A stretch of DNA of 64,000 bases. It comes from a bacterium. Lineage in GTDB: Bacteria; Bacteroidota; Ignavibacteria; SZUA-365. Under the pieces are notes generated by a model. It searched no databases. It saw nothing but the letters and a program-made list of their open reading frames with translations, and was not told where the DNA came from. Made by a program: the position numbers and the translations under genes. This document shows, piece by piece, positions 43,784 through 51,684 of the stretch (positions are counted from its first letter, which is position 1; each line of letters opens with the position of its first letter). The stretch covers positions 124,001 to 188,000 of the forward strand of contig JAHLLD010000004.1 of assembly GCA_020444325.1 (NCBI GenBank). Reading direction: 5' to 3'.

Positions 43784-44113
43784 CTATTTGGGAGGCAGCG
43801 ACGAGGCGAAGCCTATAGCCATTTCCAGCCAGTCGCGAAGATCCGCATCGGACACGATACCGCTGGGCTCCACGTACACCATGCCCTTCATTGGCTTCCC
43901 GGTAAAATCCATTACACGTGCGTGGGGTCTGCTGAGCGCGAGCTTAGACTGGTTCTCACCCACACGCAGCATCAGCTCATCGCGGATCACACCACAGCAC
44001 ATGTTGCCCGAGAGCATGAATGCTATTCCACCGAACATGCGTTTTTCTATTATATCGTTGCGGCGCGTCAACTGCTGTCTGATGCGTTCAGCGAGAATTT
44101 CGTCGAATGCCAT
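43784..44113 (-). CDS. TfoX N-terminal domain protein
   Basis: A 109-residue protein made of one TfoX/Sxy N-terminal domain: KRMFGGIAFMLSGNMCCGVI near residues 24-43, LMLRVG, and MDFTGKPMKGMVYV near residues 68-81 are family hallmarks. TfoX regulates competence in gammaproteobacteria, but short single-domain relatives elsewhere have no known role. It lies between two divergent or unrelated genes and is likely monocistronic. Confidence 0.88.
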   Translation of the reverse strand: MAFDEILAERIRQQLTRRNDIIEKRMFGGIAFMLSGNMCCGVIRDELMLRVGENQSKLALSRPHARVMDFTGKPMKGMVYVEPSGIVSDADLRDWLEMAIGFASSLPPK

Positions 44114-44343
44114 GCTGTGCTCCGAAGGCTACGTGTGATGAATATGCAAGCTGGCGATTCACGGTGTCATTACATTTTGTCTTCATCGAGAAAGGCCAGG
44201 GGGCAGAAAGCGGGAACCGCTTTATATTTAAGATAATGAGGAGTATCATTCGGTCAAATCCTGAGCCCTTATTTCTCTTTTCGATCTTGCGAACCGCGCG
44301 TCGGTTTCGCGCACAGGTCTTTATATATATAGATGGAGTCTGT

Positions 44344-46575
44344 ATGAAATCGTTAGTACTGTATTGCTTTGCGCTCGTGTGTCTGTTGAGCGGATCCGTC
44401 TTGGCCACGACGCATACTGTGGTGAATTCAGGGTTCAGTTTCAGTCCCTCGAGTCTTACCATAAACGTTGGTGACACGGTGGTGTTCAATCTCGGATCAG
44501 CGCATAATGTTGTTGAGGTGAGCCAGGCCACTTGGAACGCCAACGGGAACACCCCGTTGAGCGGAGGATTTACGCTCCCGTTCGGTGGAGGGACGCTGAT
44601 CTTCAGTACTGCGGGAACGGAGTATTACGTCTGCTCGCCTCATGCCTCGTCCGGAATGAAAGGCACGATTAATGTCGTGCAGACCACCGTCTCCACCAGT
44701 ACGCTCGCCGCGTCCAGCTACTGCGTGGGCGATATGATGACAGTGCCGTACACCGCGAGTGGAAACTTCCAGGCGGGGAATACGTTTACGGCGCAGCTCT
44801 CCGACGGCAGTGGTTCCTTTTCGAGTCCAACCACCCTGGGAAGCGTAGCCAGCACGACTTCGGGACAGATTTCGGGCAGCATTCCCGGCAGCGTCGTCAC
44901 GGGCACGGGCTACCGTGTACGCGTTGTTTCGAGCATGCCAGTCCTGGTCGCCAACGACAACGGGAGCGACCTGTCGATAAGCGAGGTCCCGAATGCCAGC
45001 ATCACTCCTGCCGGACCGACGACGTTCTGTGAAGGATCGAGCGTTACGCTTGACGCTTCACCAACGGGTGCGGGACTCACATACATATGGCGGCGGGACG
45101 GTATTGTAATCGTCGCCGCCTCCGGGGCGAGTTATATTGCAGCTCTGGCGGGACAATACACTGTTGAGGTAAGCAATGGCACGTGTTCATCAACGTCCTC
45201 CCCGCGTCCGGTGTTCGTCAATCCCGCTGATCCGACTACACTGACATGGACGGCAGCGGTGGATACCGACTGGGGGACCGTGGGGAACTGGGACAATCCC
45301 TGCGCCGTGCCGACTGCCGGTGACACGGTCATCATCAATGGAGGCGTGCAGCCGCCTGCAGGCACACCGGCACTTTCCATCGACCGTCTCGTGCTCAACA
45401 ACTCTGCCGGACTCACACTCAACAATGACCTGGAAATCACTGGCGTGCTGGTGATGAGCAGCGGGTCTATCACACTCGGGATAAACAATCTCACGATCAG
45501 TTCCGCTGCGATGATCTCGGGTGCGACATCCTCAAACTTTATCATCACGGATGGAAGTGGGGAACTGCGTCAGGAGGGACTTGGTAGTGGTGGCCGCAGC
45601 GCTGCGGTGCTTTTCCCGGTGGGAATAAACGGGTTCAGTTATACCCCGGTATCGGTGACCAATGCCGGAACGCAGGATGTGTTCGCTGTGCGTGTCGCGG
45701 AGGATGTGCTCACAGACGGCAGCAGCGGGAGCGCCCTGCTGACGGATATTGTGGACAGAACGTGGTTTATCAGTGAAGGCATCGCGGGAGGGAGCAACGC
45801 GGACCTCACGTTCATGTGGAACGGCGCGGATGAACTTCCCGCGTTTGATCGTACGGCGTGTTTTGCCGCACATCACGATGGCTCTGATTGGTCCCCTGTG
45901 CAATCCATCGGCGCAGCGAGCGGGGGACCGGTGTACCAGCGTACGGCAACAGGGGTTTCCAGCTTTTCTCCCTTCGCCATCGGAGATGCCTCATCGCCAC
46001 TTCCCGTGGAGCTGAGCAGGTTTTCGGCGGATGTGGATGGGCGCATGGTTCATCTTCGCTGGGAAACAACGCAGGAAACAGACTGCGCAGGATTCGCGGT
46101 GCAGCGGGCGGACGAGCGTCAGGCGGACTGGGAGGATATCATATTTCTCCCGAGCCGGAGTCCCCGTCTCGGAACACAATATTTCTATACCGATGAGACA
46201 CCGGGAAGCGGTACATGGTCGTACCGACTGCGGCAGGTGGACCTCGATGGCAGCGAGTCGTATTCGCCGGTGCTGCGCGTGCAGGTGATCACCGCCGCCT
46301 CGCTGGCCCTCGAGAATCTGTATCCCAATCCGGTATTCCTTTCGAATGGCGCCAGTGTAAGCCTCCAGCTGAGGTCCGCGCAGAATGCACCGGTGCGTCT
46401 GACGCTGCACAATGTGTTGGGCGAGGAAGTCATGCAGCTGTTCGAAGGCAACCTCGCAGCAGGTGAGAGCCGGCAGCTGCAGGCCACGCTCTCATCTCTT
46501 GTGCCCGGAGTATACATCTACCGGTTGTCACAGGGCGATGTTCTGCGGCAGTACCGAATGCTGGTCCAGCACTGA
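44344..46575 (+). CDS. Secreted cupredoxin-domain protein with T9SS tail
   Basis: A 743-residue protein. After a signal peptide (SGSVLATT), residues 22-113 are a plastocyanin-like domain with all four type 1 copper ligands visible: His54 (GSAHNVV), Cys97 and His100 (YYVCSPH) and Met105 (GMKG). Then come Ig/PKD-like domains (about 115-300), a beta-rich middle, the common pre-tail domain (PLPVELSRFSADVDGRMVHL), and a T9SS sorting domain (NLYPNPVFLSNG, VLGEEVMQL, LVPGVYIYRLS). Likely a surface-exposed electron-transfer or copper-binding protein. ATG 44344 is the start of the signal peptide; the frame is open further upstream. Confidence 0.9.
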   Translation: MKSLVLYCFALVCLLSGSVLATTHTVVNSGFSFSPSSLTINVGDTVVFNLGSAHNVVEVSQATWNANGNTPLSGGFTLPFGGGTLIFSTAGTEYYVCSPHASSGMKGTINVVQTTVSTSTLAASSYCVGDMMTVPYTASGNFQAGNTFTAQLSDGSGSFSSPTTLGSVASTTSGQISGSIPGSVVTGTGYRVRVVSSMPVLVANDNGSDLSISEVPNASITPAGPTTFCEGSSVTLDASPTGAGLTYIWRRDGIVIVAASGASYIAALAGQYTVEVSNGTCSSTSSPRPVFVNPADPTTLTWTAAVDTDWGTVGNWDNPCAVPTAGDTVIINGGVQPPAGTPALSIDRLVLNNSAGLTLNNDLEITGVLVMSSGSITLGINNLTISSAAMISGATSSNFIITDGSGELRQEGLGSGGRSAAVLFPVGINGFSYTPVSVTNAGTQDVFAVRVAEDVLTDGSSGSALLTDIVDRTWFISEGIAGGSNADLTFMWNGADELPAFDRTACFAAHHDGSDWSPVQSIGAASGGPVYQRTATGVSSFSPFAIGDASSPLPVELSRFSADVDGRMVHLRWETTQETDCAGFAVQRADERQADWEDIIFLPSRSPRLGTQYFYTDETPGSGTWSYRLRQVDLDGSESYSPVLRVQVITAASLALENLYPNPVFLSNGASVSLQLRSAQNAPVRLTLHNVLGEEVMQLFEGNLAAGESRQLQATLSSLVPGVYIYRLSQGDVLRQYRMLVQH

Positions 46576-46652: not shown

Positions 46653-47279
46653 TTATGGCTGCGGTGTGCTGTCGAAAAAGTCTACCATGCCGCTCTCAAG
46701 GGAATATTCCGCGCCGACAATCATCAGTTCATTATCGAGCAAACGTTGTTCGAGAATGCGTGAACCATGGCGGAGATGGTCTGCGGCCAGGCGGACATTC
46801 GCGCGAACGGCTTCTGCCATCAGGGCGTCATGATCGTTTCGGAGTTCAGTATGCAGCAGGGATTCGACCGCGGGACGCACCCGCTCGACGATGGAGCGAA
46901 GGTGGGGGGATTGTGTTTCCGAGGCACGTGTCATTTCCTCGATCGTCGCCTGTACGGCGCCGCATTGTGTGTGTCCCAGCACGACGACGAGAGGGGTCCC
47001 GAATTTTTCCGCGGCAAACTCGACGCTGCCGATTTGAGAGGGTGCCACCACATTGCCGGCGATGCGAATGACGAAGAGATCACCGAGACCCTGGTCGAAA
47101 ACGATTTCCGCAGGGACGCGGGAATCCGAACAACCGAGTATGGTCGCAAACGGCGTTTGTCCCTCAAGCAACTCCTGCCTGCGGATGTGGTCCGCATCGG
47201 TATCCGTATTCCGCTCACCCGCCACGAAGCGGCGATTGCCCTCCTTCAGCCTTGCCAGCGCTTCCTGTGCAGTAATCAC
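46653..47279 (-). CDS. Beta-class carbonic anhydrase
   Basis: A 208-residue cytoplasmic enzyme that interconverts CO2 and bicarbonate. Zinc ligands Cys50, His103 and Cys106 (ILGCSDSRV; VLGHTQCGAV) and the Asp52/Arg54 dyad are all present, with VIRIAGNVV between them. Full length for the class. A convergent terminator follows at 46595. Confidence 0.95.
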   Translation of the reverse strand: MITAQEALARLKEGNRRFVAGERNTDTDADHIRRQELLEGQTPFATILGCSDSRVPAEIVFDQGLGDLFVIRIAGNVVAPSQIGSVEFAAEKFGTPLVVVLGHTQCGAVQATIEEMTRASETQSPHLRSIVERVRPAVESLLHTELRNDHDALMAEAVRANVRLAADHLRHGSRILEQRLLDNELMIVGAEYSLESGMVDFFDSTPQP

Positions 47280-47365: not shown

Positions 47366-47752
47366 TCATGACTCATGATCAAGAAGCCAGGCGAGCGCGC
47401 TTTCTTCCTCCCTGAACAGTTTCACCTGATAGCCACGGTTTGCGGCCACCGTGACGGTGAAAATGTTCTGTTGATACGACTCCTCATTGAGATCGACGAT
47501 GGCAGCGCGGTAACTGCGTTTCCAACCAAACGCAGCGGGATCGCTGGAGAGCTGGTATGCGGATCCGGCCGGGAAATCCCCATGGAGATCGATGATGCAG
47601 AGAACCCGTGTTCGGTCTGCTTCCTCGCACAAATCTGCAACCGCACGCCAGACCTCAATGGCCTGTGAAGTCGTTTCCCCTTCGATTCGTATCCCGGAAA
47701 CTTCGACCCGCAGATACCCGTCCTCTACACGCGTACTCATGGAATATGACAT
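47366..47752 (-). CDS. SpoIIAA/STAS-like small protein
   Basis: A 128-residue protein that resembles SpoIIAA-like proteins: short beta strands at the N-terminus (EDGYLRVEVSG), VLCIIDLHGDFPAGSAYQL in the middle and an alternating helix/strand end (VAANRGYQVKLFREEESALAWL). Family members often have unknown signalling roles. ATG 47752 has GAGG upstream; the frame extends to 47800 without a better site. Confidence 0.6.
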   Translation of the reverse strand: MSYSMSTRVEDGYLRVEVSGIRIEGETTSQAIEVWRAVADLCEEADRTRVLCIIDLHGDFPAGSAYQLSSDPAAFGWKRSYRAAIVDLNEESYQQNIFTVTVAANRGYQVKLFREEESALAWLLDHES

Positions 47753-48025
47753 GATGCGCCTCAGGTATACTGAATGTGCGCCGCGCGCGCACATGATCAT
47801 ATGTTTGAAAAATCAGGATTACACTGCGAATGTACCTGTGGGAAAGGCAGAAGTCAAGAGAAAAGACGATAGCCCAGTCAGAAGATCCGAATACGACTGT
47901 GGACACTCCAGTGCTGTACGTCAAAACACAGGAGTTTCTAGTAATTCACTAACTCTTGCCTAATCAGGGAAGTGCATCTTCGAGTTCAGGTCAACCCAAT
48001 TTCTATAATTTGTGAGGAGAACTCC

Positions 48026-48250
48026 ATGCAGATGCCTTTCCGCATCCATAATTTGATGATGCTACTGTTCACGTTCGTCCTTTCGACGGCTGTGCAGGCA
48101 CAGGAAGCTGCATTCAAGGCGGCGGGTGTGCACAGTGTGCAGTGGCATGCGCAGTCCGATGACGGTGTGGCGCTTCCGAGCGGAACATATCTCTACACGC
48201 TTCGTACCGCGAACGAGGTGAGCACGCGCAGTATGATGCTCGCCAAGTAA
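48026..48250 (+). CDS. 74-residue exported mini-protein: signal peptide plus T9SS-like tail
   Basis: A good ribosome site (GAGGAGA) precedes this ATG. Residues 1-26 are a signal peptide ending VQAQE; residues 33-74 (VHSVQWHAQSDDGVALPSGT then YLYTLRTANEVSTRSMMLAK) match only the last half of a FlgD/T9SS sorting domain. There is no passenger domain at all. It is followed by a strong terminator, so it is an independent transcription unit. It may be a natural deletion remnant or a real decoy-like small secreted protein. Confidence 0.65.
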   Translation: MQMPFRIHNLMMLLFTFVLSTAVQAQEAAFKAAGVHSVQWHAQSDDGVALPSGTYLYTLRTANEVSTRSMMLAK

Positions 48251-48282: not shown

Positions 48283-48326
48283 AAAACAGAAGCCCCCGGT
48301 TCTTTGCCGGGGGTTCCTGTTTTTTC
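48283..48326 (+). terminator. Strong Rho-independent terminator
   Basis: AACAG..GCCCCCGG pairs with CCGGGGG..CTGTT and is followed by TTTT (48285-48325). It closes the 74-residue gene. Confidence 0.9.
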
Positions 48327-48394: not shown

Positions 48395-49039
48395 TCATCC
48401 TGCTTTCAGCAGCTTGAACGCATGGGTCCATTGCTGATTGAGAAATCCCGGAATGCACCAGAGTATACACAACGGCTCGATGGCGCGGGCGGCTTCGACA
48501 CCGCCCATGTCTTCCACTTCCCAGCCAAATTTCTGCAGAATAGCTGTGGTTTCCTGCTTTGCATTTTCATTGTTCCCGCAGATGAACATTGTGGGCGTGG
48601 CACCGAGTGCCGGATTGACCATCAGGTGTGCTCCGACGGAATTGAATGCCTTCACGAAATGTGCATCCGGTACGGCGGTCTGCAACTGTTCCATCAACGA
48701 AGTCTTGAGGTCGGTGAAAAAGTGCAGTACACCATTTTCCGGCGCTTCCTCGGCGATAGGATTTGTTGCATCGATAATGATTTTCCCACGCAGGGCGTCC
48801 TTGCCAGCGGCTTCAAGCACGTTCAACGCAGCCGTACCTTTGACCGCGAGAACTACAATTTCTCCAAACGCAGCCGTCTCCGCTGCCTGTCCGGTTTTTG
48901 CTTCGGGACAGCGTTCCTCTACCCAGTCCGCCAGTTTCTTCGGCTCGCGGCTACCGACCATGACCGCGTGTCCATGCCTGACAAATCCCTCAGCCAGCGT
49001 TTTTCCGACACCACCGGATCCGAGAATTGCAACATTCAT
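48395..49039 (-). CDS. NADP/F420-type oxidoreductase
   Basis: A 214-residue protein with an N-terminal Rossmann fold: MNVAILGSGGVGKTLAEGF is the dinucleotide-binding loop, followed by VMVGSREPKK, which fits NADP(H). IIIDATNPI, VKAFNSVGA and MFICGNNENAK match the F420-dependent NADP reductase/YfiA-type family. Cofactor F420 genes are not in the window, so NADP(H) alone is as likely. AAGGAGA lies before the ATG. An 18-base perfect palindrome lies 51 bases upstream and may control it. Confidence 0.88.
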   Translation of the reverse strand: MNVAILGSGGVGKTLAEGFVRHGHAVMVGSREPKKLADWVEERCPEAKTGQAAETAAFGEIVVLAVKGTAALNVLEAAGKDALRGKIIIDATNPIAEEAPENGVLHFFTDLKTSLMEQLQTAVPDAHFVKAFNSVGAHLMVNPALGATPTMFICGNNENAKQETTAILQKFGWEVEDMGGVEAARAIEPLCILWCIPGFLNQQWTHAFKLLKAG

Positions 49040-49147: not shown

Positions 49148-49217
49148 ATTCCCCGTTGGTCGGATTCCCCGTTGGTGGGATTCCCCGTTGGTCGGATTCA
49201 TGAATCCGACCAACGGG
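49148..49217. repeat. Three 16-bp tandem units running into a 34-bp perfect palindrome
   Basis: ATTCCCCGTTGGTCGG (with one C/G change in unit 2) is repeated at 49148, 49164 and 49180. The third unit starts a perfect palindrome, CCCGTTGGTCGGATTCA (49184-49200) followed by its exact reverse complement (49201-49217). It lies about 100 bases before the dioxygenase-like gene. Confidence 0.9.
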
Positions 49218-51547: not shown

Positions 51548-51684
51548 TCGATTTTATTTATTGGATTAAACGCGGGCGGGGTGATTGCGTCCAAAAGATG
51601 AATTCCATCAACCCTGTCATACGGATTTGCTTCACCAACAGGCAGCCATTGGCGACATCCGAAATCCTGAATAAGGAGGCCACC

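Follow-up and report, generated by a model that had tools for sequence, protein, structure and literature searches.

The question raised by positions 48026 to 48250 (+ strand) of the 64,000-nucleotide stretch analyzed here (the window) is whether a stop-free frame of 74 residues, in which a signal peptide is joined directly to half of a T9SS sorting domain, is a kind of gene in its own right or the remainder of a larger one. That arrangement, first described in the initial annotation, is borne out by the translation and by profile matches, and the AGGAG motif and the folding of the downstream hairpin agree with its description of a gene framed by a ribosome site and a strong terminator (Table 1). 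Residues 1 to 26 look like a Sec-type signal, judged by eye from a basic start, a hydrophobic core (hydropathy peak of 2.8), and a VQA-Q end. GGAG sites of a similar kind precede the ATG of the intact genes of relatives described below. The terminator consists of a 10-pair stem with flanking A/U pairs and a T run. Its RNA folds at −28.5 kcal/mol versus −16.2 kcal/mol for shuffled sequences, none of which was equally stable (0 of 200). It is genuine in form and, being bidirectional, is shared by the mini-gene with the oxidoreductase gene convergent to it. Neither a sigma-70-like promoter nor, in a rough scan, a Bacteroidota-type promoter was found on the + strand of the mini-gene.

Table 1. Features of the mini-gene and of its flanking genes in the window
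Feature	Position	Strand	Basis or remark
Ribosome-binding site AGGAG	48015..48019	+	Sequence; 6 nt 5' of ATG
Signal peptide, residues 1-26 (MQMPF...AVQAQ)	48026..48103	+	Sequence
Putative deletion junction, approximate, residues 27-30	48104..48115	+	Alignments with intact tails; homology ends about here going upstream
Type A T9SS/FlgD-Ig-like tail, C-terminal half (strands 5-7 by alignment, motifs D and E; motif B part absent)	48116..48247	+	
Intrinsic terminator, bidirectional, between mini-gene and convergent oxidoreductase gene	48291..48315	both	
Carbonic anhydrase (Pro_CA), left synteny marker	46653..47279	−	Adjoins intact gene in G001 and G004
Uncharacterized protein between carbonic anhydrase and mini-gene	47366..47800	−	Longest ORF; start codon unsettled
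F420/NADP oxidoreductase-like protein, right synteny marker	48395..49039	−	

Profile searches place the C-terminal part of the mini-protein at the end of a sorting tail. FlgD_ig matched residues 23 to 62 (profile positions 37 to 76 of 79; E = 7.1e−6) with 26.4 bits, slightly below its cutoff of 27 bits, and the Por_Secre_tail model TIGR04183 matched residues 45 to 69 (profile positions 44 to 68 of 72; E = 0.027) with 14.4 bits, short of its curated cutoff of 23 bits. PF18962 gave no match at an E value of ≤1, and nothing was found in a phage family library. When the mini-protein was searched against 40 relatives and its own genome at an E value of ≤1e−6, the best foreign match was to genome G004 (C216; 53% identity over 45 residues, E = 2.9e−11), followed by G001 (C18; 52%, E = 4.1e−9). 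Matches of this strength to the tails of full-length proteins indicate that the frame is not a chance one. The mini-tail is 48 to 55% identical to the intact tails over 42 residues, while the intact tails are 52 to 67% identical among themselves.

The proteins behind these matches are full length: 785 aa in G001 (C18), 789 aa in G004 (C216), and 797 aa in a third relative, G009 (C124). All three contain a choice-of-anchor I domain (NF038117, ∼600 bits) and Por_Secre_tail; the G001 and G004 tails belong to one orthologous gene, of which G009 carries a third orthologue. This tail ranks first among the 103 tail matches of the mini-protein in G001, scores 45 bits in G004 versus 30.8 bits for the next match there (E ≤ 1e−6), and is the second-best match in the G009 genome. 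The mini-gene resembles such cargo (NF038117/PF22494 plus TIGR04183) in its N-terminal signal peptide, its last ∼45 residues, and its neighbor genes but differs in lacking the passenger and the first half of the tail, with 74 rather than 785 to 797 residues. PF22494 was detected in 3 of 12 family genomes (G001, G004, and G009), gave no match in G002, G003, or G005, and was absent both from the mini-protein and from its own genome, which is rated 100% complete. With the three intact proteins as tblastn queries, only the tail was matched at the mini-gene locus (from 48119 to 48247), and no significant piece of the passenger was found nearby. The mini-gene shares the tail and the neighborhood of the choice-of-anchor I T9SS cargo genes, though with an extra gene in between; with PF22494 absent, it is a remnant of this family and not a member.

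The neighborhood argument draws on both sides of the mini-gene. The G001 carbonic anhydrase, with 68% identity to that of the window, is divergent from the intact gene, as its counterpart is from the mini-gene, with ∼420 bp between the two starts. The intact gene of G004 has a carbonic anhydrase fragment (64% over 36 aa) 307 bp upstream, at a contig end and again divergent. On the right, the G009 oxidoreductase orthologue is convergent with the intact gene, as in the window, and its 66% identity compares with 33 to 39% for the best matches in other relatives. Gene order thus suggests that the mini-gene sits where relatives have the intact gene, seen from both sides and with the differences discussed below.

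Other genes of the neighborhood also carry sorting tails. A plastocyanin-domain T9SS cargo gene (44107-46575) has a small protein gene (43784-44113, − strand) on one side and the carbonic anhydrase on the other. The small protein and carbonic anhydrase genes are adjacent in G002, where this cargo gene is absent, so it was either gained here or lost in G002. To the right, an intradiol dioxygenase-like protein (PF00775; 49321-50328) has a T9SS sorting tail, so export may bring this enzyme, of the ring-cleavage type, to the cell surface. The interval between the oxidoreductase (−) and dioxygenase (+) genes holds three 16-nt units (ATTCCCCGTTGGTCGG), arranged head to tail, that continue into an overlapping inverted repeat, perfect over 20 bp (49148-49217); this may be a site for a regulator or an element resembling a terminator.

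On the basis of the synteny with relatives and the missing passenger domain, we consider, with a probability of roughly 84%, that the mini-gene arose from a choice-of-anchor I T9SS cargo gene by an internal, in-frame deletion and is its remnant. By alignment, the lost part begins near residue 27 and ends near residue 737 of the G001 protein, a loss of ∼710 codons with the frame kept. A single deletion of ∼2.1 kb would have taken out the PF22494 passenger entirely, along with strands 1 to 4 of the tail, and left the ribosome site, the signal peptide, the last three tail strands, and the terminator. If made at all, the product would pass through Sec and then either be broken down or be secreted as a peptide of ∼48 residues without function. 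The signal half likely comes from the same gene as the tail. Its alignment scores against the intact choice-of-anchor I signal peptides are 21 to 32, and a score of 30 was obtained with the signal peptide of an unrelated T9SS cargo gene located at 51598 in the window, so the match is not specific and does not prove a common origin.

Several observations count against a deletion. The uncharacterized gene splits the carbonic anhydrase from the mini-gene, unlike in G001 and G004, where nothing homologous lies between the two genes; a 37% homologue occupies the same place in G002. That genome has the nearest carbonic anhydrase (76%), followed by this homologue and then by other genes, and it lacks PF22494. 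In G009, 4.2 kb containing another T9SS cargo gene separate the oxidoreductase from the intact gene. A 641-base region of the locus had no DNA similarity to 11 relatives. The unspecific signal match and the equally close tail of an unrelated gene in the same genome (see below) count on the same side. The deletion reading is weakest on where the signal half came from and on whether the assembly might be wrong here.

The principal alternative is that the mini-gene is a functional mini-cargo, secreted by the T9SS through a minimal signal of motifs D and E and either occupying the shuttle or translocon or acting as a peptide. The intact frame, ribosome site, and terminator favor this. In the mini-gene's own genome, no second signal-plus-half-tail gene was present among 95 other tail matches (E ≤ 10). 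Only two of these were in short frames, the next shortest being 229 aa: one of 60 aa (C12:162253) lies 53 bases from a contig end on the side from which it is read, and one of 53 aa (C2:431991) has an internal TAG, and both were rejected. No such gene was found among 103 tail matches in G001 or among 98 in G008, where the shortest frame was 216 aa. The search of 41 genomes at an E value of ≤1e−6 returned 28 matches, 2 of them in the mini-gene's own genome, with short frames of 44 aa (G012), 149 aa (G014), and 166 aa (G018). The first begins at base 4 of its contig and the second adjoins a run of N, and neither was accepted as a mini-gene. A scan of genome contigs gave 12 loci. The G018 frame and these 12 loci aside, the short form was not found in the other genomes searched. 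Nothing relevant on T9SS cargo remnants or passenger-less mini-cargo was found in the open-licence literature.

Two further G001 frames were considered and rejected as mini-genes. One of 112 aa lies at a contig end, is open to that end, and has no signal. Another, of 143 aa, contains a 131-aa ORF (C24, L103:1408-1803) that carries a whole tail. This ORF is like the mini-gene in that a cargo gene has apparently shrunk to little beyond its tail; it differs in that the tail is whole, no clear signal peptide is present, and part of the preceding repeat domain remains. It adjoins an intact 634-aa cargo gene with a similar end stretch and is likely another cargo-gene remnant.

Of the 18 sites at which all three intact tails agree (42 aligned residues), the mini-tail keeps 16. 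When each intact tail was left out in turn, the mini-tail kept 18/22, 16/22, and 19/28 of the sites common to the other two, versus 18/22, 18/22, and 18/28 for the tail left out. Because these counts resemble those of an intact tail, no decay is visible. This would be expected of a mini-cargo in use, but a recent deletion would appear just as undecayed, so that the state of the tail fits either. By the NG86 method, dN between the mini-gene and the intact tails was 0.40 to 0.48 and dS was 1.4 to 2.0, with dS close to saturation and the greater part of the branch possibly older than the deletion; among the intact tails, dN was 0.24 to 0.49 and dS was 0.87 to 2.0. These distances favor neither reading. 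Nothing in this analysis, which had one genome of the species, supports selection for the short form.

Whether the half-tail could still sort depends on which motifs it retains. Motif names follow PMC10202324 and PMC11969387, and their assignment to residues of the mini-protein is ours. In alignment with the intact tails, motif D (GxY) is present as SGTYLY and motif E (basic end residues) as STRSMMLAK; the motif B region, taken as HDLLGR of the intact tails, is absent. The intact G001 tail was modeled with seven strands (pLDDT, 81.8; pTM, 0.71), in contrast to the mini-protein, for which one N-terminal helix and three strands were predicted at low confidence (pLDDT, 66.5; pTM, 0.33); the three predicted strands correspond by alignment to strands 5, 6, and 7 of the intact tail. 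The genome encodes the T9SS sortase PorU (957.8 bits). According to the review PMC10202324, the last 22 residues of the Porphyromonas gingivalis cargo HBP35, which carry motifs D and E, are enough for GFP to be secreted. Because the retained end of the mini-protein holds these two motifs, found sufficient in that one cargo, a secreted peptide is possible as a by-product.

PMC11969387 points both ways. It describes genuine short, three-stranded tails of 40 to 55 aa in Prevotella intermedia, which the half-tail of the mini-protein resembles in its length of ∼45 residues, its three predicted strands, and its motifs D and E. Those tails keep motif B and have cargo in front of them, and the mini-gene has neither; their strands are also described as 3, 6, and 7 of long tails rather than 5, 6, and 7. 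The motif B that those short CTDs have shortly before motif D is missing from the mini-protein, and a change in motif B of RgpB is stated there to have abolished secretion. With PorU, the HBP35 result, and the P. intermedia tails on one side, and the lack of motif B, the weak model, and the lack of a conserved short form on the other, we regard a functional mini-cargo as very unlikely. That a passenger-less T9SS substrate is still made and exported by its half-tail with motifs D and E alone, possibly as a self-made competitor of normal cargo, is slightly less probable still. The initial annotation had proposed a mini-protein that competes for the T9SS machinery or is released as a peptide, and had suggested looking for similar mini-genes at home and in relatives; none was found in the genomes searched. 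What it had named as refuting its proposal was largely observed, with full-length genes at the matching place in relatives and no short form found in the relatives searched. The proposed role is not supported, and the anatomy has stood. Its simpler alternative, deletion of a passenger domain, is the best supported, given the full-length genes of relatives, the shared neighbors, and the absence of PF22494 from the home genome.

A recombinational origin, in which one half of the mini-gene, signal or tail, came from another T9SS cargo gene, would also yield such a frame. At least 150 tails in the genome exceed the TIGR04183 cutoff (150 scored of 322 candidates), and one unrelated tail (C2:58244) matches the mini-protein with 38.8 bits, on par with the 38.5 bits of the G001 tail. 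Tail similarity alone is thus not conclusive, another donor being possible, and the score of the 51598 signal peptide, on a level with those from the intact genes, would allow the same for the signal half. However, the neighbors on both sides are shared with the intact gene of relatives, and the intact gene gives the best tail match in two genomes, which makes ectopic recombination decidedly improbable. Least probable of all is an assembly artifact in which the organism has an intact gene and a piece was lost during assembly, since, for all that this is a draft assembly of 25 contigs, the contig is 354 kb long, no repeat obviously able to cause collapse surrounds the locus, and PF22494 occurs nowhere else in the genome.

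The mini-gene is a curiosity and not a new kind of gene, and as a gene remnant it is of little importance. If a passenger-less substrate were nevertheless made and exported, nature would have put the minimal sorting signal to the test. The locus also carries a warning for T9SS-rich genomes, in which the synteny of short signal-plus-tail frames needs to be examined before the label mini-cargo is applied. As a naturally trimmed construct with strands 5 to 7 and motifs D and E, the mini-protein could serve as a cheap probe of whether these motifs are enough, as in HBP35, or motif B is needed, as in RgpB.
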